Shown: piece by piece, positions 13,723 through 33,200 of the stretch | Layout: each line of letters begins with the position of its first letter | Position numbering within the stretch: the stretch's first letter is position 1 | DNA from: a virus | Virus record (IMG/VR): IMGVR_UViG_3300025141_000257 | Span: 1-39,979 of that record | Direction: 5' to 3' (one strand) | DNA length: 39,979 nucleotides | The notes under the pieces: generated by a model | Databases searched by the model: none | What the model was told of the DNA's origin: nothing | What the model saw: only the letters and a program-made list of their open reading frames with translations | Made by a program: the position numbers and the translations under genes

Positions 13723-14179
13723 TCACGCGATCGCGGTATTCGTCGGGCCGCAGTGCTTGCAGCCTGAACTTGAGCAACTGCGCCTGCGGCGAAGTCAAGT
13801 CATTCTCACCGCACGCGGTCGCATCAAGCACCGCTTCCAAGCGATCAGCCTGATACGCCTTGCAAACAGCGAAGTCCTCGGCGAACTGCTCATCGTGCAG
13901 TCTCCAGTACGTTGGAAGAGCCATCGAAACACCAACATTTGAGCAGGCTTTTCGCCAACCCACATCAACATAAGCATTGAGCCAGTCTTGCTTTAGTTGC
14001 TCTTTCATCGCTTTGCGCTGTTCAGCGGCGATTTTCGCTTCTTTGCCGCTCTGCGCGCCGGTTTTTTTTCTTTTGTTCGATCTTACATCGGTCATACGGA
14101 TCTCTGTAGCAGGGTTTCGGCGCGATTCCAGAACCAGTTGACAAAATCGGGCTATTTTCTCAAGAGATTCACTTGACAT
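13622..14179 (-). CDS. terS: Terminase small subunit
   Basis: 185 aa as drawn. It sits directly upstream of terL. A central helical region (KDW-like QDWLNAYVDVGWRKACSNVGVS followed by YWRLHDEQFAEDFA) fits a small-terminase DNA-binding helix-turn-helix with a phage-style W-R-R/H recognition pattern, and QALRPDEYRDRV follows as in many TerS-like proteins. ATG 14179 has no good Shine-Dalgarno; an alternative ATG at 14095 (MTDVRSNKRKK, 157 aa) follows AGAGAT and begins a basic segment. The DNA encoding MTDVRSNK recurs inside a virion protein gene at 36055-36078. Confidence 0.7.
   Translation of the reverse strand: MSSESLEKIARFCQLVLESRRNPATEIRMTDVRSNKRKKTGAQSGKEAKIAAEQRKAMKEQLKQDWLNAYVDVGWRKACSNVGVSMALPTYWRLHDEQFAEDFAVCKAYQADRLEAVLDATACGENDLTSPQAQLLKFRLQALRPDEYRDRVSVEQSGPGGGPIKIESGEAGRGMELLDRWIETD
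14072..14095. repeat. 24-bp segment shared with virion protein gene (copy in terS)
   Basis: Matches 36055-36078 at 23 of 24 bases. Both copies lie on the minus strand in the same frame and encode MTDV(R/K)SNK. Confidence 0.85.
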
Positions 14180-14288
14180 ACCGATGGGTCATACTGTAGT
14201 TTGCTACACAGTGATCCTTGGAAACCAAAGAGACGCGAGCCTGACGGGACTGACCCGATCTACTCGCACACCTGACCGAACACAATCA
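14180..14288. promoter_or_regulatory. Divergent intergenic region between late operon and plus-strand array
   Basis: About 110 bases separate the start of the late operon (minus) from the first hairpin of the plus-strand array. It contains a dyad at 14193-14212, with arms ACTGTAG and CTAC(AC)AGT around a TTTG centre, a plausible operator. A TTGACA sits at 14173-14178 but no convincing -10 is found at a standard distance. Both divergent promoters are expected here by gene order; none can be fixed from sequence. Confidence 0.4.
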
Positions 14289-14341
14289 CCTGTGGCTGGG
14301 GAAACCTAACCACAGGCTTTCCAGACCGTCAATCATGGCGG
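14289..14341 (+). repeat. Two-hairpin intergenic element, copy A
   Basis: Hairpin 1 (14289-14316): CCTGTGG/CCACAGG, one mismatch, four inner pairs, GAAA loop. Hairpin 2 (14326-14341): CCGTCA-ATCA-TGGCGG. It ends 20 bases before the first start codon of the array. Confidence 0.7.
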
Positions 14342-14361
14342 CTGAACTGAGAGGATGAATC

Positions 14362-14757
14362 ATGGCGCGGATTACAATCGCAACGCTGCGAGCGGCAGCC
14401 AAACCGTTCGGCATCATCGTCGAGAAGGTCGATGAATGCACCCTTGAGATATTCGCGCCAGCGGGCAAAGTCTTCGGCGGCGAAGACGGATTCCGTAGTC
14501 GGTACTTTGAATGGATGAAAGGGTGCGCTGACTGGCGGCGATCCTCTATGGAGGATGCGTTGCACTTCATCACCGAAGGCGGGCCGGATATGTACCGGGA
14601 GCAAGTAGAGGATGAGGAGGACTCTCTTGAGGGTTGCACCGTCTGTCCCGTCTGTCTCTGTTCTGGCATCCGCCTTGGCACGCTTGGCGATAAGACGCAC
14701 TTCCGTTGCAGGGGCTGCGGGATCAACTTCTACGCAGGCATCACGCTCGCTGACTGA
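14362..14757 (+). CDS. Hypothetical protein with C-terminal zinc ribbon
   Basis: 131 aa, first gene of the plus-strand array. ATG 14362 follows GAGAGGATGAATC. The N-terminal half (MARITIATLRAAAKPFGIIVEKVDE) looks like a compact alpha/beta domain, and FRSRYFEWMKGCADW follows. The last 40 residues hold two Cys pairs, CPVC near residue 95 and CRGC near residue 116, with GTLGDKTHF between them, a typical treble-clef or rubredoxin-like zinc ribbon. No function recognised. Confidence 0.65.
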   Translation: MARITIATLRAAAKPFGIIVEKVDECTLEIFAPAGKVFGGEDGFRSRYFEWMKGCADWRRSSMEDALHFITEGGPDMYREQVEDEEDSLEGCTVCPVCLCSGIRLGTLGDKTHFRCRGCGINFYAGITLAD

Positions 14758-14763
14758 CCACCC

Positions 14764-14825
14764 CCACCCGCCAGCCGAAAGGCTCGCGAGTGGTTTCACT
14801 CACAGACCGTCAATCATGGCGGCTG
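14764..14825 (+). repeat. Two-hairpin intergenic element, copy B
   Basis: Hairpin 1 (14764-14793): CCACCCGC, C, AGCC, GAAA, GGCT, C, GCGAGTGG. Hairpin 2 (14807-14822, extended to 14803-14825): CCGTCA-ATCA-TGGCGG, identical to copy A. Seven bases separate it from the stop codon before it. Confidence 0.85.
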
Positions 14826-14840
14826 AACTAAGGCAAACCA

Positions 14841-15035
14841 ATGACTATCAAAGCGAACAACCAACTGTGGATCCCTGCGTGTGGCAAAACGGAAACTTGG
14901 ACTAAAGCCCGCGACGGGCGAGAATATCTATACGTTTGGTGGAGCAACGCCAGCGAGGGCGTTGCCGCCGTGCATCGTCACGGATGGCTCGACCGACAAG
15001 ACGTTATCCACACGACGGACCCCTACAACGCCTGA
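14841..15035 (+). CDS. Hypothetical small protein
   Basis: 64 aa, rich in Trp (KTETWTKARDGREYLYVWWSN). ATG 14841 follows CTAAGGCAAACCA, a moderate ribosome site. No membrane helix, Cys cluster or known domain is seen. Gene size, start signal and its place between two copies of the hairpin element support a real gene; function unknown. Confidence 0.55.
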   Translation: MTIKANNQLWIPACGKTETWTKARDGREYLYVWWSNASEGVAAVHRHGWLDRQDVIHTTDPYNA

Positions 15036-15041
15036 TCCCCA

Positions 15042-15098
15042 CCGCTCCACTACTGAAAGGTACTGGGGCGGTTTCAAACGCCCGTAATTGTGCGGGCG
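15042..15098 (+). repeat. Two-hairpin intergenic element, copy C
   Basis: Hairpin 1 (15042-15071): CCGCTCCA, C, TACT, GAAA, GGTA, C, TGGGGCGG, same geometry but different stem sequence. Hairpin 2 (15079-15098): CGCCCG, 8-nt loop, CGGGCG, a completely different stem from copies A and B. Confidence 0.8.
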
Positions 15099-15117
15099 AA
15101 TACTTGAGGATGAACCC

Positions 15118-15399
15118 ATGGCCATACCGACCTACTTTCAGATGCCCCACAATGAGAACCGCTACGTCAGTTGGGATGGGAGCGCTACATTCCAAACGGG
15201 CTGGTTTGATGGGGATGGTTCATTCGTCCCCACTGAGGAGTTCGAACTCAGCGGGCCTTGCACAGAACAGGAGGCTTGGGAAGTTGCCGAGAGCGTGTTC
15301 AGGGATGACAAAGAAATGAGGCTTGAAGCGGCGATAGAGGACGGGCCAGCCGGGGAGTATGAGAACCAGAACCACATCCGCGGGGATGATCGAGGTTGA
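15118..15399 (+). CDS. Hypothetical protein
   Basis: 93 aa from ATG 15118 (TGAGGATGAACCC upstream). The sequence starts MAIPTYFQMPHNENRYVSWDG and has an acidic middle (EFELSGPCTEQEAWEVAESVF). A longer in-frame GTG start at 15088 lies inside the hairpin element and is rejected. Not recognised; likely a cytosolic protein. Confidence 0.55.
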   Translation: MAIPTYFQMPHNENRYVSWDGSATFQTGWFDGDGSFVPTEEFELSGPCTEQEAWEVAESVFRDDKEMRLEAAIEDGPAGEYENQNHIRGDDRG

Positions 15400-15405
15400 T
15401 CTCCA

Positions 15406-15460
15406 CCGCTCCACTACCGAAAGGTACTGGGGCGGATTCAACACAGCGTCCGCACAGCGG
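15406..15460 (+). repeat. Two-hairpin intergenic element, copy D
   Basis: Hairpin 1 (15406-15435): CCGCTCCA, C, TACC, GAAA, GGTA, C, TGGGGCGG; compared with copy C a T.G pair next to the loop is now C-G. Hairpin 2 (15450-15460): CCGC-ACA-GCGG, followed at once by CAAGGAG. Confidence 0.85.
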
Positions 15461-15474
15461 CAAGGAGAATTGAC

Positions 15475-15597
15475 ATGAAAAACCATAGAACCAAAGCCAA
15501 GCCCACCAAGCCCACCAAGCCCAAGCCCAAGCCCAAGCCCAAGCGTAAGCGCGGCGAACCACTGCCGAAGCGTATGCGGGACTTGCTGACGTTCTGA
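15475..15597 (+). CDS. Small basic Lys-Pro repeat protein
   Basis: 40 aa, ATG 15475 after CAAGGAGAATTGAC, TGA at 15597. After MKNHRTKA it consists of Lys-Pro and Lys-Pro-Thr repeats (KPTKPTKPKPKPKPK), then RKRGEPLPKRMRDLLTF. The DNA repeats AAGCCC units, so the copy number could change by slippage. The protein is certainly basic and unstructured in the repeat; nucleic-acid or RNA binding is a guess. Start, ribosome site and flanking hairpin elements are all as in the neighbouring genes. Confidence 0.6.
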   Translation: MKNHRTKAKPTKPTKPKPKPKPKRKRGEPLPKRMRDLLTF

Positions 15598-15603
15598 CCA
15601 CCA

Positions 15604-15660
15604 CCACCCCTTGGCTTACTGGCCATCGGGTGGCTTCAATCACAGCAGCCGCACAGCGGC
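15604..15660 (+). repeat. Two-hairpin intergenic element, copy E (divergent hairpin 1)
   Basis: Hairpin 1 (15604-15633) keeps the 30-base length but is weaker: six outer pairs (CCACCC/GGGTGG), two mismatches, then GGCT/GGCC with a TACT loop in place of GAAA. Hairpin 2 (15648-15660): GCCGC-ACA-GCGGC, then AAGGAG. Confidence 0.7.
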
Positions 15661-15673
15661 AAGGAGTTCTAAC

Positions 15674-16180
15674 ATGTTCATGTCCCAACCTACCGTACTG
15701 AAAACCATTGGCGAAAACGCCGTCCGCAACGAGGCATCCCACTTCATCAACCTAGTGGAAGGCTATTGTGAAGGCGATGTCAAGAAAGCCACAAACATCT
15801 CCCGCAATCGAACGCGAGAGATCCAAGAGCATGCGATTGAATCGCTCACTGAGTCCGTGACCGAACTTCTCAGTCTGTACCTCACTGCGAACGATGATCA
15901 CTTCTACTTGTACCACTGGTCCCGCGACTGTGACATGGTCGAGGGTAGTCATGTTTCAAAGCATCACTGCAACGACCCAGAAGGTGAGGGGGCTGGCCTC
16001 AATGCCGACGAGTACATCGAATTGCTGATCGCTCAATCGATTGGCGAGGCGGAAGGCCCAGCCGCCTGCCGTCTCATCAGCGAGGCGAAGTACAACTCAC
16101 TACGAGCGAACCCTGAGCCTGTCCGTGACCGAATCATGGAGGCCCGCGACAACGGCAACCCATCGCCCTTCAGTGTCTGA
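15674..16180 (+). CDS. Hypothetical protein
   Basis: 168 aa from ATG 15674, seven bases after AAGGAG. Mostly helical by sequence: ENAVRNEASHFINLVEGYC, REIQEHAIESLTESVTELLSLYL, EYIELLIAQSIGEAEGPAACRLI. No cofactor or metal motif is evident, although the HWSRDCDMVEGSHVSKHHC segment is His/Cys-rich and could bind a metal. Largest gene of the plus-strand array. Function unknown. Confidence 0.6.
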   Translation: MFMSQPTVLKTIGENAVRNEASHFINLVEGYCEGDVKKATNISRNRTREIQEHAIESLTESVTELLSLYLTANDDHFYLYHWSRDCDMVEGSHVSKHHCNDPEGEGAGLNADEYIELLIAQSIGEAEGPAACRLISEAKYNSLRANPEPVRDRIMEARDNGNPSPFSV

Positions 16181-16187
16181 CCACCCC

Positions 16188-16243
16188 CCACCCACCAGCC
16201 GAAAGGCTCGTGGGCGGTTTCAACACAACAGCCGCACAGCGGC
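16188..16243 (+). repeat. Two-hairpin intergenic element, copy F
   Basis: Hairpin 1 (16188-16217): CCACCCAC, C, AGCC, GAAA, GGCT, C, GTGGGCGG. Relative to copies I and H an A-T pair replaces G-C or G.T in the outer stem. Hairpin 2 (16231-16243): GCCGC-ACA-GCGGC. Confidence 0.85.
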
Positions 16244-16256
16244 AAGGAGCATCGAC

Positions 16257-16595
16257 ATGACCGCGAAGACAATGCACCGCATACAAGATGATCGAACCGC
16301 CACCGAATGGCTCACTCATACCTGCTTCGTCAAAGGGCGTGATACCTTCATGTCTGGATGGGGCGGTGCTGAGGGAGGAACGTCCTACGCCGTTTGGTGC
16401 TGCCGGTCACAAGACCTTGGCGCGGTGTTGAAGTGGGTGAAGGCACGAACCGACATGGTGAACGTGACCACCAACTTCAATCCCGATACCTATAAACTCA
16501 AGCGTGGGGACCGCCTCCACATGTACGTCGTGGATGAGGGCCACCCGTCACTCGCGGCGAATGACGATGGCTGTCCCCCGGCTTGGCGAGGCTGA
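16257..16595 (+). CDS. Conserved-looking phage hypothetical protein
   Basis: 112 aa from ATG 16257 (GCAAGGAGCATCGAC upstream). It contains CFVKGRDTFMSGWGGAEGGTSY followed by VWCCRSQDLGAVLKWVKARTDM, a pattern I recall from small phage proteins of unknown role (FMSGWG core, W--C, V--WV--R-DM), then RLHMYVVDEGHPSLA. Probably a compact alpha/beta fold. Function unknown. Confidence 0.6.
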   Translation: MTAKTMHRIQDDRTATEWLTHTCFVKGRDTFMSGWGGAEGGTSYAVWCCRSQDLGAVLKWVKARTDMVNVTTNFNPDTYKLKRGDRLHMYVVDEGHPSLAANDDGCPPAWRG

Positions 16596-16606
16596 CCATC
16601 CCACCC

Positions 16607-16662
16607 CCACCCGCCAGCGGAAACGCTCGCGAGTGGTTTCAACCACAGCAGCCCAATAGGGC
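16607..16662 (+). repeat. Two-hairpin intergenic element, copy G
   Basis: Hairpin 1 (16607-16636): CCACCCGC, C, AGCG, GAAA, CGCT, C, GCGAGTGG. Hairpin 2 (16651-16662): GCCC-AATA-GGGC, a different stem with pairing kept. Confidence 0.85.
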
Positions 16663-16679
16663 AGAGAGCGAGAACGACA

Positions 16680-16970
16680 ATGGGAACACCACGAAAACCA
16701 CACAACGACTACGCTGGGTATGTGTTTGAACGAAAGATCAGGCACAACACAGGCGGCGGAGGTCACATCGTTGTCATCGACCGCAAGAAGGAGGGTGGTG
16801 ACTGGGTTGAGGGACTGGACACCAGCCACCGCTGGGTGGTCTTGTTTGAATTCAAACATTCCGACTGTCGCATCCACTCATTCAAATCATTGAAAGAGAC
16901 TCGACGCGAAGTCTACGCCGCTGCTGCCGATGCGGACTACGACTTGTGGCAATTGGTTCTCTCAGTCTGA
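16680..16970 (+). CDS. Hypothetical protein
   Basis: 96 aa. ATG 16680 follows GCAGAGAGCGAGAACGACA, a weaker ribosome site than its neighbours. A basic N-terminus (MGTPRKPHNDYAG) precedes a likely beta-rich core (HIVVIDRKKEGGDWVEGLD, RWVVLFEFKHSDCRIHSF) and a final helix (KETRREVYAAAADADYDLWQL). Not recognised. Confidence 0.55.
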   Translation: MGTPRKPHNDYAGYVFERKIRHNTGGGGHIVVIDRKKEGGDWVEGLDTSHRWVVLFEFKHSDCRIHSFKSLKETRREVYAAAADADYDLWQLVLSV

Positions 16971-16977
16971 CCCCCCC

Positions 16978-17033
16978 CCACCCGCTAGCGGAAACGCTCG
17001 CGGGTGGTTTCAACCAAGCAGCCGCGCAGCGGC
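16978..17033 (+). repeat. Two-hairpin intergenic element, copy H
   Basis: Hairpin 1 (16978-17007): CCACCCGC, T, AGCG, GAAA, CGCT, C, GCGGGTGG, eight perfect outer pairs. Hairpin 2 (17021-17033): GCCGC-GCA-GCGGC. Confidence 0.9.
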
Positions 17034-17046
17034 AAGGAGAATTGTT

Positions 17047-17346
17047 ATGACCACAGCACACACACCCGGACCTTGGACTGTCGAGAAAGACATCGACAGC
17101 ACGCCGTCCCGCGTCACCTTCCGCATTGGTGGGGATCGGCAAGCGGCGATAAGTAGCGAACAGGGCATCACGGCAACCAACGCCCCTGCACTTATGAGTG
17201 TCGAAGAAGCAGAAGCGAACGCTCGGCTGATCGCTTCTGCACCTGCGTTGCTCACCGCGCTTCAGACACTCGTCTTCGACCCATACGATACCGATCCTGA
17301 ATGTTGGGCAAACGCCATGGCAGCCATCGCCAAGGCGACTGAATGA
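17047..17346 (+). CDS. Small phage protein of the HTPGPW/ARLIAAAP type
   Basis: 99 aa. The start HTPGPWTV and the later EANARLIASAPALLTALQTL are the two signature segments of a small protein found in many tailed phages and prophages; its role is unknown. Between them is a beta-like segment (VTFRIGGDRQAAIS) and NAPALMSVEEAE. ATG 17047 follows AAGGAGAATTGTT. The family match gives good confidence that the array carries standard phage accessory genes. Confidence 0.75.
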   Translation: MTTAHTPGPWTVEKDIDSTPSRVTFRIGGDRQAAISSEQGITATNAPALMSVEEAEANARLIASAPALLTALQTLVFDPYDTDPECWANAMAAIAKATE

Positions 17347-17351
17347 CCCCC

Positions 17352-17409
17352 CCACCCGCCAGCGGAAACGCTCGTGGGTGGTTTCAACACAACAGCCGCG
17401 CATAGCGGC
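17352..17409 (+). repeat. Two-hairpin intergenic element, copy I
   Basis: Hairpin 1 (17352-17381): CCACCCGC, C, AGCG, GAAA, CGCT, C, GTGGGTGG. Hairpin 2 (17395-17409): GCCGC-GCATA-GCGGC, the loop enlarged by two bases and the stem unchanged. Confidence 0.9.
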
Positions 17410-17422
17410 AAGGAGAATTGTT

Positions 17423-17704
17423 ATGACTAAAGCACGTTTGCGTATTAGTGAGCGCAACCGCTGGAACAGGTGCAACTTCACAAAGGGTATCCCCGACCAT
17501 GTGTGTATTGATTGGCTCGCCCGGCAGATAATTGATGCCGATGCGGTCCACTTCTGGATCACATACTTGATCGATAACCTCGGGCCGATAGAAAAAGAAG
17601 GAATCGTGAAGGGGGGAATCCAAGTGTATGACGAGGACGAACTACACAAATCGTATGCAATGGATCTTGAAGAACAGAAAACAGAGGTGACTCGTGAAAT
17701 ATAA
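17423..17704 (+). CDS. Hypothetical protein
   Basis: 93 aa, ATG 17423 after AAGGAGAATTGTT. Basic first 20 residues (MTKARLRISERNRWNR), then a helical segment (DHVCIDWLARQIIDADAVHFWITYLIDNL) and an acidic end (YDEDELHKSYAMDLEEQKTEV). The last 11 bases overlap the next gene, so those two are translated together without a hairpin element between them. Function unknown. Confidence 0.55.
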   Translation: MTKARLRISERNRWNRCNFTKGIPDHVCIDWLARQIIDADAVHFWITYLIDNLGPIEKEGIVKGGIQVYDEDELHKSYAMDLEEQKTEVTREI

Positions 17705-17873: not shown

Positions 17874-17952
17874 AGGTGGGGTGGCCCTGAGGGATGTCTC
17901 CGCCGGGGCCACCAGCCACCTACCACAGCGGCACGCATCCCACTCTACCACA
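17866..17952 (+). promoter_or_regulatory. Structured leader upstream of the Cro-like gene
   Basis: TGTGGTAGAG at 17866-17875 pairs perfectly with CTCTACCACA at 17943-17952, and its first eight bases can instead pair with CTACCACA at 17920-17927. Inside lies a 7-bp hairpin, GTGGCCC/GGGCCAC, at 17881-17912. This differs from the two-hairpin elements upstream in the array and offers two alternative structures close to the Cro-like start at 17975. Confidence 0.5.
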
Positions 17953-17974
17953 ATCCGGGGAGATTGGAGGCACA

Positions 17975-18208
17975 ATGCCTGTACTTCCTGACCCAAACGC
18001 ACCGGGGCATGAGTTCCGCCACATCGTCCTTGCCGAACTCGCAAGCCGCGACCTCTCGCGGACTTGGCTGGCAAAGCGGGTCGCTGCCCAGCCGGGTGGC
18101 TGCAGCGTCCACAACGTCTACCACTGGCTTCGCGGCGACCAAGACATCGGATCAAAGTATCTCGCGGTCGTGTTCCGCGTGCTTGGCCTGAACGTAAGTC
18201 GGTACTAG
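17975..18208 (+). CDS. Cro/CI-like helix-turn-helix protein
   Basis: 77 aa from ATG 17975 (GGAGATTGGAGG upstream). Residues about 25-70 form a helix-turn-helix of the XRE type: LSRTWLAKRVAAQ, then SVHNVYHWLRGDQDIGSKYLAVVFRVLGL, with the W-L-A ... YHWL-G ... LGL spacing of phage Cro/repressor proteins. It closes the plus-strand array just before a terminator and is likely a DNA-binding regulator of the divergent or convergent operons. A separate CI-type repressor is not visible. Confidence 0.7.
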   Translation: MPVLPDPNAPGHEFRHIVLAELASRDLSRTWLAKRVAAQPGGCSVHNVYHWLRGDQDIGSKYLAVVFRVLGLNVSRY

Positions 18209-18215
18209 TAGCCCA

Positions 18216-18243
18216 CAGCCCCTCGCTTCACGGCGGGGGGCTG
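18216..18243 (+). terminator. Rho-independent terminator ending the plus-strand array
   Basis: CAGCCCC at 18216-18222 and GGGGCTG at 18237-18243 pair, extended inward by CGC/GCG, with TTTGCGTTTT directly after on the plus strand. It lies between the converging Cro-like and RusA-side genes. The minus-strand direction lacks a U-tract. Confidence 0.75.
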
Positions 18244-18252
18244 TTTGCGTTT

Positions 18253-20563: not shown

Positions 20564-21301
20564 TTAGAACGGAATGTTGTGGGCGGGGGAGTTGGTCACT
20601 TCCTTGATTGGTTGTGGGAAATTTCCTTCCTGACGGCCAAGGCATACGGTGATCTCTTCACCCATACTGGCTTCAATCACATCTGCGATTTCCTTTGTCC
20701 AGACCCTGAACTTTCTCCCAAAAGCGTCCTCGACGGTCCACATGGGATCGCCATTCTTCTTGGCTCCCTCATCCATATACTTTGGAATGAGGATGGTTGA
20801 CGAATCACCACGGGCTACTGCCTTCACATCCGGCTCAGGGGCAGGAGCAGCCGCTCTGGGCTTGGGCTTTGCAGCAGGGGGGGTGACGGGGGTCGAAGAT
20901 CCAGACGCAGCACGGGCCGCCTGAGGGGCTGTGGTGGAAGAACCAGATCGGCGGCTGATCGCCTGCTCTACCTCGTCATAGGATGCGACCTCGTTCGATG
21001 CGTTGTACCCAGCAGCGTCGAGAGCGCGGCCCCTCGCCGAGGTAGAGCAGTTCTCCACAGCAGAGGTTTCGTTGATGTAGTTGCTACCGAAAATCTCCTC
21101 GGCAACGTCCTCTCCAAGAACCTTACCGTCGCCGTTCCTCACCTCGCAGGAGCAGCACACCCGAACCTCATCGAGAACCGTGATCATGGTTCGGATGCTC
21201 CCATCCTCATGGTCGTGCCTGAACCGCTTGGTTCTGCTCGCAACCGTTTCGTAGGGCTTCCCCTTGATGTCTTGGAGAATTGGTGTTGGTTTTGTATTCA
21301 T
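20564..21301 (-). CDS. Single-strand annealing / recombination mediator-like protein
   Basis: 245 aa from ATG 21301 (AGAAAGGA upstream). The N-terminal domain contains INETSAVENCSTSARGRALDAAGY, the E-x-(A/C)-x-TSA-GRAL-x-x-G pattern of Erf/Rad52-like annealing and related phage proteins, followed by NEVASYDEVEQAI. A Pro/Ala-rich linker (PVTPPAAKPKPRAAAPAPEPD) leads to a C-terminal domain of about 70 residues (FRVWTKEIADVIEASMGEEITVCL) that could be an OB-like fold. Adjacent to the RecE-like nuclease gene, so both probably act together in recombination. A ssDNA-binding role is the alternative. Confidence 0.55.
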   Translation of the reverse strand: MNTKPTPILQDIKGKPYETVASRTKRFRHDHEDGSIRTMITVLDEVRVCCSCEVRNGDGKVLGEDVAEEIFGSNYINETSAVENCSTSARGRALDAAGYNASNEVASYDEVEQAISRRSGSSTTAPQAARAASGSSTPVTPPAAKPKPRAAAPAPEPDVKAVARGDSSTILIPKYMDEGAKKNGDPMWTVEDAFGRKFRVWTKEIADVIEASMGEEITVCLGRQEGNFPQPIKEVTNSPAHNIPF

Positions 21302-21306
21302 TCTGA

Positions 21307-22359
21307 TCAATCCTTTCTGAAGATCGTCTGGTTTGACTGACGAAGACAATCGGATTGCACCGTTGTATACGTATCATCAACATGTTTATTCAGCGCGTCG
21401 GCAATCGTTGATCCACCGAGAATATCCCGAACGAGCCGCTGATTGCCTTCGGTTTCCAGTTCACGCCTTGCCCACTCGGGAACACCGATCGGGACCGGCT
21501 TCTCTGACCAGCACGGGAACTTGCCCCTGCCGATCGTCATTTTCCACTCGTCAAGCAAACGCTCAAGTAGGGGTCGGTGAGCATCAAGTACCTCCTCATC
21601 AACGTCGAACACACACACGCCGTGAGGCGGTGACTTCTCGACAACAATGAACGAGACACGGGCGACATCCACGCCATTCTCTCGCATCATCTCGCGGTAC
21701 ATGCACATCTGCAATCCGTAGCCGTATCGCCACACATCCTGTTCCACCTCCCGGCGGCTCGCGTGGTTCTTCGTAGATTTGAGATCACAAAACACGGCAT
21801 CACCGAGCGACGGATAGCCGCAGTCATTCGACATCGCGTCGATCCTAGATTTGCAGGGAACACCATGAAGCGTAGCGAGAAGCGTTGCTTCGCGGATAGG
21901 GCAAAACTCCAGAAGTTCCGATGCTGCTGGGTGTGCTTGGATCGCCGCGATCATGTCAGCAACCTGTTCACCCTCTTCTTTTTTCAGAATGGTCCGCTCT
22001 CCAACAGACGTTTCAAACGCAGCGTACTCTTCCTTTCCAGCCTTGGTACGCTTATCAACCTGCGGAGCGGTGGCGTAAAGATCACCGTATAAACCCGGTT
22101 CCAACACACCGCAGTGAAGCGCGCGTCCGACGCGGAACGCCGTGGTGTCCTTCTTGAAATCCAACTGGTGTTTCAAGTGCCTCGCAGTTCCACGGTCAAG
22201 CACTTTGAGTTGGCTGGATGAACAGACACCACGCTGGGCGTGGTATCGCGACTCATCCATATCCAAAATAATTCCAGTAGGGCCGAGGTCTTCCCATGTC
22301 GCTGAGTGCGAGACGGGGGTGAACGGTGTCGAAACATTCGATATGTTCATCTTCTCCAT
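21307..22359 (-). CDS. RecE-like (exonuclease VIII-type) PDDEXK nuclease
   Basis: 350 aa from ATG 22359 (AGAGGA upstream); ATG 22374 overlapping the previous stop is an alternative. The N-terminal part, SRYHAQRGVCSSSQLKVLDRGTARH, then GRALHCGVLEPGLYGDLY, is typical of phage RecE/DUF3799-like nucleases. The catalytic set is visible: E157 (REATL), D174 (KSRID) and D192-x-K194 (CDLKST). Such enzymes chew double-stranded DNA ends to provide single strands. An 11-residue tail-like segment near the C-terminus, ILGGSTIADAL, is encoded by DNA nearly identical to part of the giant virion gene. Confidence 0.8.
   Translation of the reverse strand: MEKMNISNVSTPFTPVSHSATWEDLGPTGIILDMDESRYHAQRGVCSSSQLKVLDRGTARHLKHQLDFKKDTTAFRVGRALHCGVLEPGLYGDLYATAPQVDKRTKAGKEEYAAFETSVGERTILKKEEGEQVADMIAAIQAHPAASELLEFCPIREATLLATLHGVPCKSRIDAMSNDCGYPSLGDAVFCDLKSTKNHASRREVEQDVWRYGYGLQMCMYREMMRENGVDVARVSFIVVEKSPPHGVCVFDVDEEVLDAHRPLLERLLDEWKMTIGRGKFPCWSEKPVPIGVPEWARRELETEGNQRLVRDILGGSTIADALNKHVDDTYTTVQSDCLRQSNQTIFRKD
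21392..21423. repeat. 32-bp segment shared with giant virion gene (copy in nuclease gene)
   Basis: Bases 21392-21423 match 31317-31348 with two differences, including 23 identical consecutive bases. Both copies encode ILGGSTIADAL in the same frame although the two proteins are unrelated. Confidence 0.85.
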
Positions 22360-22370
22360 TGATGATCCTC

Positions 22371-22553
22371 TCATTTGGGGATAAAGGGTTTCAGTTCAGG
22401 GTTTGAATCGACCTGCTCCCGTGCGTATCTCACAACTTGGCGTGTGACCACGGCAGTCCGGGTTCGATCCTCGTGCTTTGCGATCGCGTCAATCAACTGT
22501 TTCGTCTGTGAAGAAACGGCAATAAATGCTTGATCGCGTCGTGCAGATGCCAT
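22371..22553 (-). CDS. Small ribbon-helix-helix-like protein
   Basis: 60 aa from ATG 22553 (AAAGGAG, seven bases upstream). Sequence: a short N-terminal strand-like segment QAFIAVSSQ, then TKQLIDAIAKHEDRTRTAVVTRQVVRYARE. Strand plus two helices is the layout of CopG/Arc-type DNA-binding dimers. It is the first gene after the operator-rich region and may regulate its own operon. The stop overlaps the nuclease start region. Confidence 0.55.
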   Translation of the reverse strand: MASARRDQAFIAVSSQTKQLIDAIAKHEDRTRTAVVTRQVVRYAREQVDSNPELKPFIPK

Positions 22554-24220: not shown

Positions 24221-27200
24221 TCACCGTAAAGGTGGGGGTGCATACCCCTTGCGTTTCAATTTGGCATTTGTGTCCTTCTGACCCTCAAGCATGAGTAACC
24301 TTCTCTCCTCGGCCTTGGTCATCGGTTCCGCCTCCCGCTTGCGGCGACGAAGTTCCGTGAGAACTTTCTCGATGTCCGGGCCAGCGGCGATCTTGCGAAC
24401 CTTTCGGGCATACCGGCTCGGTGCTTCGGTGGGTACGCCAGTGAGTGTCGCGACATCGTTGAGAACCCGAATAGCACTATCGAGTGTCTTGCCTGACCAC
24501 TCATCGTCACGCTCGGGACCACCCCACGACTCGGGGCGGATTTTTTTGCCAAGCGAGGCCGTGTTCTCAATCATTTCCGACAACTCGGACAACGCGGCAA
24601 TTTCGACCGGGTCACCGCTCTGATACCCACCTTGGATGATCTGATCCACAGAGTAGAACGCGGAAGAGACAAACCAACCCCACACGCCAGTGCTTTGTGC
24701 GACAACATCCTCCAAAGCCCGCCGCTTCGCCTTGTGAAGACTGTGGTCAATCGCCATCTGCCGCTGAATTTCGCGGTCAACCTTGTTCCACTCATCATCA
24801 TCATCGAATAGTGAGAACAACCCGGCGGTGGTGGCAAGTCCCACACCGGAGGACAGCCCAGAGTTCAGCGTAATCGCCACAGCCGTCCTGCCCGCGCGTG
24901 CGGGGTCAACCCAGAAGTCCCTTGCGGCGTGTCTCAATTGATTGTACGCCTTCAGTGGATCGCTGGAGAACATCAACAGGGCGCGGAACGCGCTGTTCCG
25001 TCCCTTGACCCTCGCGGCGTACATGGTGTCATCCATCGCGTCAGATGTGTTCTGGGTCCGGCGGAACGTCATCGCCGCACGGTCAACGGCCTGCTCAAAC
25101 GTCAGCCCCTCGGCCATGTGGCCGCGAACCGCGATCAACATGATCTGTCTATCGATCCCCCGGAGAACATGATCAAGACCACGGACTACCGAGAGCAGGC
25201 CGAGGCCAAGTTGACCACTGGCCTTGATCGAATCAACCACCTTATCCACAGCAGAGGCTGCGTCATCCTGACCAATCTTCTTCATCGACCGAGCGAACGA
25301 AGTGAGCGTTGTGAGAAGTTTGCGGTGGCTTCCTGTGTCTCGCAGAAGGTTTGAGTACCTTCCAATCTGGGATCGCCTGTGCCGCTCGTTGAAGTAACCA
25401 CTCTGCTCCTCGACTCTGCGAATCATCTCGCCCCTCATACCCGGAGTGAGATTTCTGACATCCGCGAACCCCTGAGTCCATGAGAGCATTGGCATCTCCG
25501 ACATCAGTCGGAACGCCCCGCCGAACATGCGGACCCACGTTTCCACACTAGCAACGAGATAGGCTCCGGCGACGTTGCTTTGAATACGATTCAACCAACT
25601 AGAATCAGACTGGGTTCCGGTCAGTCCAACCCCGTATTTGAGCATGTCGCGTATTCGATCGATGGAGTTGTCGCCCATCTTCTCGCTTATGGCGGACGAA
25701 ATATCCTCATCGCGAAGCAACGCATCAAACTCTCGCAGTGGTCTACTCAGGTGAATGACAGAAAGTGATTCTGAAACGTGGTGGTCAAACACACTGAACA
25801 GGTTCGCGATCACAATCGCAGCACCGCCGCCCGTCCGCTTCTGGAGGAATCCAGCGTTGTCGAGCGTGGCGGTACCCGCCTCATTTAGAGATGGTGGCGT
25901 GAGCGGGTCAATAGCAGTTGAACTTTGCCCCGTGAGATCCGTTCCGAGTTCGGCGCGGCGACGAGCGCGGGGCCAATAGTTCTCCACCACCGGCGGCATC
26001 TTCCCGTGCTGTTCGTGATGCACATCAAACGCGCGATCGCGAATATCCTCCTCCAAGATGTTCTTGAGGTCTTGGATAAGTTGCATGTGCTTGGGGCCGA
26101 CCATCTCCCTGACGGCCTCGACCTCATCTTGTGAGGCTTGTATTTTTTTCCGGTTGGCTATTGATCGGAACACGATCCCCGGCCCATCACCATCCTCAAG
26201 GATCGCGGCTTGGTCACGGGGCAGTGTGGAAACTGTTTCATCATCCATCGCGGCGATCGACAGAGCCTCGGACAACTTGATTGTCATCTGTTTGCCACCG
26301 AGTGTCACTGTGAGTGTCGCCGCCGCAGTTTCACCGTACATGTCCGTGGTCTTTGCGAGGAAGTCTTCCTTAGAGGAGTACCCTGCTCGCTCCAGAGCCT
26401 CCCCAACCTTCTCATCTATAGATCGTTGATCCAGCCACATCCGACTCTTCGCGGCACGGATTTTATTCCACGCTCTCCTGAGAACAGAATCTTTGCCCGC
26501 GATGGTTTCAAAGATCCCGTCCGCGTCTTGTGATTCCTGAAACTTCTCACTGATAATCCCCGGCTTGGTGGCAGCAGTATCAGTGCGGCTACCCTGAAGA
26601 CCGTGAGACTGCTGCGTAGCCCAGTTCGCATCCGTGGCACGGATGTTCGCGGCTTCTTCTTCCTTGTCCGCCTGTAGTCGCTCTCGCCTCTGGGCAACAG
26701 CCTCTTTCCAAGAGAGCCGATCCTGCTGGTACACATCGATCGCGATCTCAAGCAGATCGCGGGCGCGGCTGAGACGATCAAGTGTCTCAGTCACTGAGTC
26801 GAGGTTGATGACCCGGTTGTTGCTCCCGGTGAGCAGCCCCTCCGCAAGATCGAGGTTTCGCTTGACCTCGGCTCTTGCTGTGTTTCTCATTCCCCGCTTG
26901 TTGAAACGCTTGCGGATATTCTTGATGTCCACTCTGGTGGCGGCAGCCTCAAACTGTGCGGACACCGCCACAACCTCATGTGCAATCTTGCTGACATCAG
27001 CGAGTGTCTGCGCGGCGAGAGCGCGTCCCATGAAGCGGCCACGCAACTTGCTCGGCAACACGGCCTGAGCCGCCATGACCGCTCTCCTTACCTCCCGAAG
27101 TTCACCCTTCAGTTCCTTGACCGCCCCACTCGCGGCGCGTTCCTCGGCCTTCAGTTTGATCCGCAGGTTCCGTACCTTCTCCTTCTCGGAGCGAGCGTCG

Positions 27201-30200
27201 ATCTTCGCGAGTTTCTCACGGAGTTTCCGGCGACCAACTTCCAGACCCTCCTTGTAACCAACCTTCGCGGCCTTGGCCTTTGCCGATTGCTGGCCCCTGA
27301 GTGCTATGTATTCCTTCCGTGCTTCCTCCGTTTCCTTGGTCATTTCGCGTGCATAAGCGCGCAGGGCTGTGGCAACGACTTTGTCGGAGGTGTTCCGGGC
27401 TTGATCACGCAGACCCTTGACAATCGACCGTGAAGTCCTGTAGTCGAATACCTGATCCCGTGCCGAGCCGATCGGGAGGGGCGCGTCATCGCGGGCGGCG
27501 AGAGTGTCGGCGGTTTGATCCTTGACTTGGTCTGGATCAGATGGTACGATTGCCCCTGAATCGCCCTTGGCCTCTTCTGCGGAGGACGCATTAGATTGCC
27601 GGGGCGGTTCATTTTTTTTCTGGTCAACCGTTCTATTTCTGACATCTGCGATCGTCCAAATGTCTGCTTGTCGCTCCTTGGGCTTTCTTGCGGACTCCAG
27701 CGCGTAGATCACTTTGCCTTCATCCGAGAGTTTGGACAACATGTCCATATTCTCAGGTGCGAAAGCCGTGGTGAGTACAAGTGCATTCGGGCCATGGGGG
27801 GACAATTTCTGAACGGAGATGCCCACCATGATTGGTGCGGAAAAGTCAACGCCGCCTGACTTCCCCTGCGGACCACGACGATGTGGTTGTCGGAGTGCTG
27901 ACCTGATCCAAACACCGATCCCCGCCTTGCCAGTACGGGGGTCGTGGTACTCTGTGATTGCCAGAGGGTCGGAGAGGTATTGCGGAAGATCGTCCCACAC
28001 ATAATCAGGGATGCGGTGTGCTGGATCAACAGCGTCCCTGAACCCTGACGCAGACTTCTCATTGATAAGTTTCGGTCGAACCATGACGGTTGACGGGACA
28101 CCTTCACCACCAAAGATCCCCCTAATTCTTCCAACCTTCGCCCTTCCCAGAACGCTCAGGAACAAATCCGTCGCGTCACCGATCACCGCCGCATGCTTTG
28201 TTTCTCCACGGCGGATCGTTCTGAGAGAATCCGACCAACTGGCCCCTGCTACATCGCCTTCGCGGGCGTTGAGGGTGTCAACCGAATCAACTGTGGACTT
28301 TACTTCTTGGGCGACTCGTCCGACTTCGGTGTTGAACTTGGCTTGCTGCTCGGAGATACGGCTGAGTGCATGACGTATCCGCCAGCCGCGACTTCTGCCA
28401 ACGGCCCCGCCAACGGCTCTCCGATCTTCCGGTGAGGCACGCCCAACCGCTTCAGTTTTTCCGCCAGCCGAGAGAAGTTCACGGAGGTCGGCTTCCGTTG
28501 GGGCGACTTGTTCGATTGCTTGTCGTTGGGCATTGGTCAGTCCGTTCTGCCAGTCAGAATCTGGCGAAGCATCCTCTGCAATTATATCATCAACAAGGGC
28601 TTCGTGACCCCTAGCATAATCGGAATCGAAACTTGCGTCAAGGTATTCCATGTCAGCGTAACCGTCTTGCACGGTTGCACCAATTAGTTGGGCTGACGAG
28701 CCGATGACATCTTCAAACGCCTCGTCCGACATGGACTCCATTGGGTCACTGATGAGAACAACATCCCCAGAGGTGGCTGGGACGATGGTCACAGTTGCCG
28801 AGGGTGCTACCTCGTTCATGTGCTTTGTTAGTTGCTCACGTTCGGTCTGGCTTATGGTGCGGCCAGCGGTGTACAACTGTGCCGAATCGACCGGGTTTGT
28901 CATTCCGGCCTTGTCATCAGCGAATCGAATTGCGCCTTGACCCTCTTGCTGAAGCACAGTTCCAAACAGACGCATAAGAACAAGCCGCTGATCTCTGGTC
29001 ATCCCCGCCATGGAGATGATCATGTTGGGCGACATCACACCACCCCACAACCCCACCGCGCCTTGGCCTTGTTTGTCTACGCCTTCAGACAGCGTGATGA
29101 GCCGGATTGGCTTGTTGGGGTTGTCAATGTCTGCCAACGCCTGAGTAGGGTTGTACCTTCGCCCTGTAATTGCGGAGATTAGTTCTCCCAACATGGGGTG
29201 CGCCAAGGTCTGCTTGGGCAGAACACCTGTGGCGTTCGACAACGCTTGGTTGGCCCCGGTTGTCCCACGAAACCTGTGACCCTTTGGCTTGTTGTCAACC
29301 TCTTCTTGGGTAATCAGGCCGCTGCCCTTTCCCGCAAGCCATTTCATAAACGATGTATGAACCGCATCCAGTTTTGATCTCTGTTCACGAAGAGTCTTCT
29401 TTGTGTCCTCGTCAACACCTTCTTGCTCTAGCCCGACAGCAATACGCTGACGTTGTTCAGACTCCAGTTGGCCCTCGGGTGTCGCAGTTGTTCCAACCTC
29501 TTGGGTAATCGCCTGCTCTTTCCGGGCTGTGGTGCTTGGCTCCAGTGTTTCACTGAACGACTTGGGGGCAACGGCTGCGATCTCTAGGTCGATACCCTTG
29601 CGACCATCCGGCAAATCCACAACCGCTGAGTGGTTTTCGCGTACCAGTTGATCAACAACCTCATCAATCGCGATGGCAAATGAATCGCTTTTACTGAGGT
29701 GTGACCACGGGTAAGCCATGAACTGGCCGGGCGACCAAGGGGTAATCAATACTTCTTCGGACACCGACAGTGGTTGGCCCGCGTCGTACTTGGCCTTTGC
29801 AGACTGATACTCATCAGTAGCCTGCACCTTCTCGTTCATTATTTCGGTCAAGTGACCAAAGTAAACGGATTGATATTGGTAGACGTATGGGTCTGCAAAC
29901 GCCTTATTGTCACCAGTGCCGGGATACTGGTCCGTGTCCTTTGCGTCAGACATGTCTCTAAACTTGGACATGTACGCCACCCAGATGTCGTTTGTGGTCA
30001 GCGGTACATTGGGATCTAGACCAAGTGCATGAAGAAATGCAGGAGCAAACGATCCGGTCTTATAATTATTACCACCACGCAATGTTCCTGACAACGCTTT
30101 GCGAACAAGCGGAGCAGATTGCATTCCAATCCAGTTTGGTCTTTCTGCCAACGCATCTACCATCACACCCAAGGCACGGCGAAAGTTTTGTGACACAGTT

Positions 30201-33200
30201 GCCTGCGGAGATGTGGCTGACAAGAAGTCTGCAAACAATGTCAACCTCTCGGCAGCAATGGGTCCGTTGTCTGGGTTCAAACCGACAAGTCTCTCGGATG
30301 CGGCTAATGCAGATGATTCAAACCAGAACCTGTCACCGTTTGTCCGATCAGGGTCATTGAGTGTGTTGTTGAAAATATCAACGTCAAATAGTGGCAACTC
30401 ACTTCGGTCGCCCTGTTGACTTGCCCCCAACCCACCACTCATCAAATTCCGTACAATTTCGGCGCGACCCTCACCTATTGTTTCCGCCGCCAGCCGACTT
30501 GCTTCTTTCACATCCCCATCATCAAAAGTCACATTGTATTCAGTACGGGATCGCCTAACTTCTTCACTGCCAGCGAGGCGACCACTAATGAGTTCGGATG
30601 GCTTGCCGGGCTGGTACGGGTTTGTTTGTCCACCGAGCCTTACGGACTCTGGGGTTGCGTCCCGAATGTCCTCCGTCTGCACCTTGGACTTTGGCTTTCC
30701 TGCTATCTTTACACCTTCACGGGCGAACAGCGTCCCCTGCTCACCCTCCTCTTTGCCGGGCTTCTGCTCCACTTTCTCTTCGGTGTCTACGACTACAGGG
30801 GCTGCCTCCTCGACAGGGGCTGCCTCCTCGACAGGGGCTGCCTCCTCGACAGGGGCGGTTTCCTCGACAGGGGCGGTTTCCTCGACGGGCATGATCTCTT
30901 GGATCGCTGCTTGAACACGCTGCTCTGCTGACGCGAGGATTCGCATTTGTTGCAGTTGCCTGTACACAGCGAGGTCTGCCGCATCCGTGGAAGGACTCCA
31001 TGCACGGCCACCGCCAAGAGCAGTGGAAGCACGAACCATTTCTATGGTCTTGAGGGCCGCATACACGGCGCGGCCTCGACCTCCGAGTCTGATCCATGCC
31101 CGTCCGATCTTCCCCGCTCTCGCTGCTACGGCGGCTCCGCGTTCCACCGCAACCGCCGTACCCTCAAGACTTGTGTATGTGGCAGCAGCCGCAGCGGCAC
31201 CAGGGGCCATGCTACCGGGATCTTCGCCCCGTTCAATAGCATCGAGCAGAGTTATTGCGTGGTGATCTTCCGCAGTTAGTGTTCCAGCCGCTTCCCCTTG
31301 GCGTACATATTCCCTGAGCGCGTCGGCAATCGTTGATCCGCCAAGAATCTTCTGTATTGCTGCATGCGCGACGGGGTCGGTGACCGATAGATAGTGAGTG
31401 GATTCGTGCAAACCCTTTGAGATGGCCTTGTCAGCGTCCATTGAACCTGTTTGCAGATACACGACATCTGGTGTGGAAGCATTCCACTGCGCTGGGCCGG
31501 GCAAGCCATCCACAAACTGCACCCGCAGTCCCATAACTTCAGTCAAGAATTTTCTGGCCGCTTCGTCGGCTGCCGTGGTAGCCGAGGCTGCGGTGATACC
31601 TTGCTTCCCAAACTTGCCGTCTGCAGCGAGGAGTTTCTCGGGAGATGATGTTTCCCACTTGGACTCGCCCGCAATGGCGGCTTCACCCGCTATCTGTGCG
31701 AACTTGTTCTGAACGACGCGCTCTGTTGCCGCGTAAAGCATCTCCACAGAAGACCTGTAGTCTTGTACCACACGCTCCGCGCTCACGGTGCCAGCCGCAT
31801 CCGCTGCTTCGTTGCGTTGCTGCTCATACGCGGCCTTCGCGAGCCGGATTCCACCAGCGGTTGCCACCACGCTCTCAGCACTCGCATCCATATCTCCAAG
31901 AGCCTCGACCGCTGCGGTGAACCCCTCATGGTTTGCGATCTCAGACACCTCGCTCATGGCACGAAGCGACCCCTTGATCGCGGCCACCGCCTCACCCACC
32001 GCCTCGGGAGATCCGCTCTCAGAGGCAGTCTCAAGAGCCGTCAGGCCAGCGTCCAACGACTGGGCCGCAGCGGCGTATGCCTCGGCTTGTGGTGTGCCGT
32101 GCGTCTTTGCCAGTTTACCCAATGCCCTCGACCGTTTCCCAAGTTCCACTGCTTCGGCAACGGCTTCCTTGGCCCTCCTCGCCAGACCCTTGACAACAGC
32201 CCCTCGGCCCTCTCGCGGTGTGGCTCGCACAGCGTCGAATGCCGCCTGCCCTGTACCAAATGACCGCTCCATGGCTTCTGCCGCCGAGAACAACCCCCGG
32301 CTCACCAGATCATCATGCGCTTTTTCGTATTGTTCTAGAGCCTTCGCATTCACCATTGCCTGCTTGAGCATGAATGCGGGCTGGAACGCGAAACCTGCAG
32401 CCGCTCCCATGTAGAACGAATGGGTCATGTCATCGAGCATTTCCCCCCACGTTCCGCTCACCTCGTTGGTGACTGCTGGCAACAGTGTGTGTTGAAGGGC
32501 CGATGCAAAGGATTCCTCGGTCCCCTCAACCACAGAGGCAGTAAAGAGTCCGGCTACAACCCGCTTCTTCCAGCCAGCCGTGGACCCGGTGATTGCTCTC
32601 TTCGCAACCTCGCCCATGGCACCAAGGCCAATCCTCTCGGTCACCGCCTCAATAGCGGCGGATGTGCTTGCGTACACCAGCGAGTCCCAAGAATCGTAGT
32701 CAAACTCTCCTGTGGCACTCTTTGCGCCATAGGTTTCCCCCGCTCCCGCAAACGCCTGAGATCCCATCAGGGAAGCACCGGCTGTGCCGCCGGTCAGAAG
32801 GGTGAGTCCAATCGCCGGTGCCATGTTCCCAAGCGTGTATGGAATGCCGTGTATAGAGAGTGCGTTTATGCGCGCGATCCTGCCTTGGCGAAACGCCTCG
32901 TCCTCCTCTTCCGATATTCCGGTTACATACTCAAAGATCCCGCTGGGTGTTACTGTCCGAACAAAAGAACCCCACGTACCCCACGCGGTCTGCTTCGCAT
33001 GATCGATACCCGCCCGCCGACGCGGTGCTGGATCACCCGCTAGATCGTAATTCTCGTGGTACAACCGCATGCTATTGGTCTTGTCAACCCCGAGTTGGAA
33101 GGCAGCGTGCTGTTTTCGGGTTTGCTGACCAACTGGCAACTCGTCGGAATATCCAAGCAGGCGCATCCATACTCGGGCCGCCCAGTCTTCTTCGGAGCCT

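Follow-up and report, generated by a model that had tools for sequence, protein, structure and literature searches.

Each of the nine small plus-strand genes between positions 14362 and 17704 of the window, the 39,979-base stretch of phage DNA analyzed here (one IMG/VR virus record), is preceded by the same RNA element, in which a 28–30-nt hairpin (h1) is separated by an A/C-rich linker from a second, small hairpin (h2), beyond which lies the ribosome site. The element is a structured RNA absent from Rfam 15, it recurs at the same place in related phages with its pairing retained through compensating changes, and comparison of these phages indicates that the genes have been shuffled between them. 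We propose, with slightly less than even confidence, that it is a portable module for starting translation, which insulates each gene from its neighbors within a polycistronic operon shuffled by recombination.

All copies lie on the plus strand. Copy 1 (14289–14341; h1 14289–14316, h2 14326–14341) is found within the leader ahead of gene 1 (14362–14757), and is followed by copy 2 (14764–14822; h1 14764–14793, h2 14807–14822) ahead of gene 2 (14841–15035), copy 3 (15042–15098; h1 15042–15071, h2 15079–15098) ahead of gene 3 (15118–15399), copy 4 (15406–15460; h1 15406–15435, h2 15450–15460) ahead of gene 4 (15475–15597), copy 5 (15604–15660; h1 15604–15633, with a variant loop, h2 15648–15660) ahead of gene 5 (15674–16180), copy 6 (16188–16243; h1 16188–16217, h2 16231–16243) ahead of gene 6 (16257–16595), copy 7 (16607–16662; h1 16607–16636, h2 16651–16662) ahead of gene 7 (16680–16970), copy 8 (16978–17033; h1 16978–17007, h2 17021–17033) ahead of gene 8 (17047–17346, phrog_1273), and copy 9 (17352–17409; h1 17352–17381, h2 17395–17409) ahead of gene 9 (17423–17704). 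All nine window spacers contain a 30-nt tetraloop hairpin in which 11 or more of the 13 positions are paired, compared to 1.0% of dinucleotide-shuffled spacers. The first-pass annotation, which had described one arrangement before every gene of the array, is thus borne out for all nine genes, and its view that the genes are unrelated agrees with the presence of only chance-level short matches among them. Its geometry for h1 needs one exception: eight outer pairs (once seven), a 1×1 mismatch, four inner pairs, and a GAAA loop describe the hairpin well, except in copy 5, where there is a 2×2 internal loop and the terminal loop differs from the GAAA of the other eight copies. Likewise, the stop codon and C-rich stretch said to precede each hairpin are found at the other copies, but copy 1 has neither an upstream stop nor a strong C-rich stretch, because it sits in the operon's 5′ leader. 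The start of the gene after copy 3 was corrected to 15118.

Among the nine window copies, 94.4% of the cells hold a standard pair, compared to 71% in column shuffles, and in 10 of the 12 pairs both partners have changed. Sliding the partners by one to three columns lowers pairing to 33–42%, although this control favors the structure because the structure was read from the same nine copies, a bias from which a test on other phages is free. Around a dozen related metagenomic phage contigs were collected through the terminase gene and one more through a small HTH gene; the sample thus consists of metagenomic contigs of one phage group, several of them truncated, and includes a near-copy of the window (L008, 99.97% identity). 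A covariance model built from the nine window copies alone, searched against 143,851 bases, returned 32 matches with E no higher than 1. Every match at E<0.1 is on the array strand and 5′ of the terminase, the contigs concerned being L010, L011, L015, L016, L017, and L022 as well as the window, L008, and L009; a single match, at E=0.99, falls elsewhere, and searches of whole records had the same outcome. This search had been proposed in the first-pass annotation as a check on whether the element is only a duplicated spacer, which the homologous structures in six other phages make unlikely. Over 24 distinct rows, in an alignment that was fitted to the covariance model and is therefore biased towards it, 96.1% of the cells are paired and double changes occur in 10 of 12 pairs. 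The double-changed cells number 51, against a shuffled mean of 11, counts that do not represent independent events since copies inside one phage are related.

No score of the element reached the gathering threshold in Rfam release 15, and low-threshold searches gave nothing convincing. Annotated phages searched by DNA yielded no match, nor did tblastn with two array proteins. The terminase, used both as a single sequence and as a profile, had no match in the bacterial genomes searched, and no host is therefore assigned. Collection scans with the hairpin and leader patterns returned matches in the same phage group only.

The anatomy of the element was established from 42 gene junctions in nine arrays, curated by hand since the automatic gene chain took some false GTG starts within hairpins. 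In 36 of these junctions h1 is present as a hairpin of 28–32 nt with 11–13 pairs, nearly always one or two irregularities, and a predicted energy of −13 to −25 kcal/mol. Its loop is GAAA or GGAA in 23 cases and UACC in eight, the rest being UACU, UAAC, UGAC, CAAC, or a six-base loop. The stem is followed by YUUY or AUUC, so that UU is present in all 36 copies, while the longest T-run is 3. Spacing is regular on both sides: the distance from the stop codon to h1 is 5–8 nt in 24 of 29 internal copies (mode 6), the first 12 bases past the stop being 72% C and 3% G, and the end of h1 mostly lies 38–47 nt from the start codon. The second hairpin adjoins the Shine-Dalgarno (SD) sequence, most often ending 13–17 nt 5′ of the start codon, and keeps its shape while its stem sequence varies widely; a strict definition of h2 is satisfied at 31/42 junctions, compared to a shuffled mean of 0.9 and a maximum of 5. 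Six junctions, all of L013 or L022, lack h1 and have h2 as their only or almost only component, so that the SD-adjacent part is the more constant one. The first gene has h1 in all seven h1-bearing arrays even though no cistron lies upstream, and the element is missing where the stop and start codons of two genes overlap. The predicted unpaired fraction is 0.77 for the linker and 0.56 between h2 and the start codon, compared to 0.23 for h1 and 0.28 for h2. The strength of the SD is variable, with some sites having only a GAG-type SD. The stop codon is UGA at 32 of 33 internal junctions. Read-through or recoding at UGA was rejected as an explanation, since UGA is also the commonest stop elsewhere in the phage (13/18), the spacer lengths differ, and at copy 8 a TAG lies six codons further on.

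A promoter-like site (TTGACA-18-TAGTTT, plus strand, 14173–14202), which we take as the putative promoter, lies 5′ of the array in the window, and sites of the same kind (TTGAC-type, 16–18 nt, TA-type) are found ahead of the first gene in six of the nine arrays; a stricter promoter scan did not report the window's site. Between this site and copy 1 lies a leader hairpin (plus strand, 14235–14267) with an ACUGA loop and a bulge on its 3′ side, whose fold is shared by five leader variants that differ in their stems. In the window, L009, L010, L011, L016, L017, and L027, the loop is invariant while the stems have changed and yet remain paired; these folds were taken sequence by sequence, because the leader alignment misplaces a gap in L027 and L016. 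The hairpin may be a separate regulatory RNA. The leaders of L009 and L011 have around 90 extra, nearly identical bases before a GGAAACC motif that are absent from the window despite its ~98% identity with L009, so that the leader, too, has been swapped. At the other end, a canonical terminator-like hairpin followed by TTGCGTTTTC (plus strand, 18215–18244), which was picked up by a terminator scan, probably marks the end of the operon. Between the last array gene and a small HTH-like gene (17972–18208) there is also a long GC-rich inverted repeat at 17876–17910 (GGTGGCCCTGAGGG...CCCTCAGGGCCACC) with no T-run after it and with a counterpart in L017. The HTH-like gene lies 3′ of the array in both the window and L017, and adjoins the terminase genes, 5′ of the array position, in L012, L013, and L022.

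The content of the array varies from phage to phage, with some genes recurring in different company and resembling each other more closely than do the cores of the phages that carry them. Window gene 6 and a gene of L013 are 93.3% identical over 285 bases (terminase 76.1%), a block shared by L015 and L027 is 96.5% identical over 346 bases (terminase 88.9%), L015 and L016 share 161 bases at 93.2% (terminase 76.8%), and L010 and L027 share 217 bases, including gaps, at 85.3% (terminase 72.7%). The borders of these blocks vary from case to case: the likeness between L010 and L027 runs from the start codon to just past the stop, with each phage retaining its own type of hairpin around the gene, whereas that between L015 and L027 extends as far as the 5′ arm of the following h1. 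L009 is without gene 1, the h1 of copy 1 being fused to the sequence after copy 2 by a join within a 27–30-base repeat with exact flanks. This join could be an assembly error at the repeat; the pairs with 85–97% identity are not explicable in that way. L012, the terminase of which is 79% identical, has no such array, but the HTH gene followed by a terminator-like hairpin. The gene at 15475–15597, which encodes a 40-residue peptide rich in lysine, arginine, and proline, is common to the array of L011, where its gene context is different.

Genes for an exonuclease VIII-like protein (phrog_412, 8e-60) and for a RusA-like resolvase are present in the phage, which suggests that ordinary homologous recombination is the likely route of exchange. 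Within 20564–22374, the exonuclease VIII-like gene lies beside a phrog_11717 gene, the relatives of which are found in Lactobacillus delbrueckii, Bacillus, and Pelagibacter phages, and the product of which is perhaps its annealing partner. A search of three records, at least one of which is a fragment, revealed neither a tyrosine nor a serine recombinase. The first-pass annotation had suggested the attachment of interchangeable single-gene cassettes; the interchangeable genes are supported, but neither a recombinase nor the motif pairs of integron attC sites were found that would point to a dedicated attachment site. An attC identity was accordingly rejected, as RYYYAAC and GTTRRRY occur together in 0/42 junctions and no integrase was found in the three records. 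The array genes include no members of defence-system families. Elsewhere, a single reading frame of 3,095 codons (24221–33508) occupies almost a quarter of the record and has no PADLOC family match.

Among the roles offered in the first-pass annotation, translation control is the one that we prefer. The association of the element with gene starts, its fixed distances, the conservation of its shape, the openness of the linker and the SD region, and its absence at overlapping genes together favor an insulating translation-start module, as does the occurrence of the same module before unrelated genes. Past the UGA of a gene, a ribosome would encounter a short, C-rich, unpaired stretch and then, ~6 nt beyond the stop, the stable h1, which would halt the sliding of ribosomes that are done with the upstream gene and would also prevent pairing between neighboring sequences and the start region. 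The unpaired A/C-rich linker would be a landing (standby) site for ribosomes, which h2, directly 5′ of the SD, would hold open in a defined context; hairpins flanking an unpaired landing stretch 5′ of the SD are indeed what the folding predicts. Each gene on what we infer to be a single transcript would thus be loaded afresh, whatever its neighbors, and genes could be added, lost, or reordered, for which the repeats would also offer homology for exchange by ordinary recombination. Both aspects of this proposed effect on ribosomes have analogues, as attC stem-loops are reported to block ribosome movement between integron cassettes (PMC8876359) and initiation in E. coli is governed by the geometry of standby sites (PMC3936740); by analogy, the element may act in translation in a similar manner. 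The chief difficulty is the h1 before the first gene, where there are no upstream ribosomes to block, so that h1 must aid initiation itself or separate leader structure from the start site. Other points against the module are that the SD region is predicted to be moderately rather than strikingly open, that the model does not require the conserved YUUY after h1, and that SD strength is variable, down to the GAG-type sites. A stronger version, in which one RNA module is both expression insulator and homology joint and the operon is a recombinase-free cassette platform that accepts single coding sequences into ready-made slots, is conceivable, if rather doubtful.

The alternatives account for parts of these observations. 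An endonuclease might cut in the linker, so that the mRNA of each gene would be protected at its 5′ end by h2 and at its 3′ end by the next h1, a model that would fit the unpaired linker between two hairpins at nearly every junction and the conserved UU right after h1. However, h1 also precedes the first gene, where no upstream cistron needs protection, it is missing from six junctions in L013 and L022, and its 11–13 pairs are short for RNase III, and we consider such processing or stabilization of the mRNA unlikely. A repeated translational operator, bound by a phage or host protein that switches all cistrons jointly, would explain why the same structure precedes every gene, and the variation in hairpin type by phage group would be expected with co-evolving recognition. 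Yet loop and stem sequences vary widely even within one phage (window copies 1, 3, and 5), leaving only the shape, and the analysis turned up no candidate protein. Recognition of the GAAA loop by a protein is less likely because other phages have UACC, UAAC, CAAC, or GGAA there. A protein-binding site is therefore also improbable. CsrA-type GGA loops and boxB-like GNRA recognition were rejected, being not conserved across phages.

The GC-rich h1 with UU after it in all 36 copies, and a conserved structured leader just past the promoter-like site, could instead suggest a transcriptional role, with h1 a pause site or weak terminator that grades expression and is perhaps overridden by a put- or nut-like leader. 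This is quite unlikely, as the T-run after h1 never exceeds three and none of the nine copies was called a terminator by the same scan that calls one at the operon end; a canonical intrinsic terminator was rejected for the same lack of a T-rich tract. Finally, the repeats might be kept only for gene gain and loss, the hairpins having no role as RNA. Genes do travel between phages, the join in L009 lies within a repeat, and internal h1 copies are 79% alike within a phage versus 72% between phages (permutation p 0.0004). Nevertheless, we regard a mere recombination joint as very unlikely: besides the lack of a tyrosine or serine recombinase in three records and of attC motif pairs in 42 junctions, the borders of the shared blocks are inconsistent between cases, compensatory changes cut identity yet retain pairing, which is the opposite of what plain homology needs, and the position of h2 next to the SD is left unexplained.

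The elements belong with the repeats that are associated with gene starts in small-gene operons of phages. PeSL cassettes of T4-type phages, in which an early promoter is joined to a terminator stem-loop, are similar in being repeated regulatory stem-loops among shuffled small genes, whereas the internal elements described here have neither a promoter nor a T-rich tail; three weak internal promoter matches over the nine arrays all lie outside the elements. A passage of PMC4503421 cites these T4-type cassettes. The nearest known arrangement is that of the SAS/ESAS repeats of cluster K mycobacteriophages (PMC3203893, PMC12699233), which lie just 5′ of the start codons of many small non-structural genes, and the function of which is itself unproven; Pope et al. 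saw little evidence that ESAS repeats fold into hairpins in mRNA and favored DNA-binding proteins. In both, the repeats point in one direction and comprise a core next to the start codon (here h2, at nearly all junctions) and, in a subset, an extra upstream inverted repeat (here h1, at 36/42), and they accompany genes of different families. The likeness is one of placement, not membership: the SAS 13-mer GGGATAGGAGCCC has two matches at up to three mismatches, which is below chance, and neither is at an element, and the pairing of the present elements is supported by covariation. Integron attC arrays also consist of mostly single-gene units in one direction, with imperfect inverted repeats forming hairpins between them, and are reported to act on translation, as we propose for the element (PMC8876359), but differ by their integrase and their RYYYAAC/GTTRRRY pair. 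The leader hairpin resembles HK022 put RNA (PMC9378689) and lambda nut in being a structured RNA just past the promoter of a phage operon, although its fold and sequence are different, the intergenic elements are repeated while put is not, and an antitermination role for the leader is conjectural.

Phages have many small genes of uncertain use that are rapidly gained and lost, and how a newly arrived gene comes to be expressed without disturbing its neighbors is seldom visible. Here, a structure conserved through compensating changes is found ahead of nearly every gene of this kind, across phages that differ in content. The array makes the question accessible to simple two-gene reporters, and the covariance model can be used to find further arrays of this kind. 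The element would be a counterpart in nature of the insulated ribosome-site parts used in synthetic biology, and the role of the SAS and ESAS repeats may be approachable by analogy with it.
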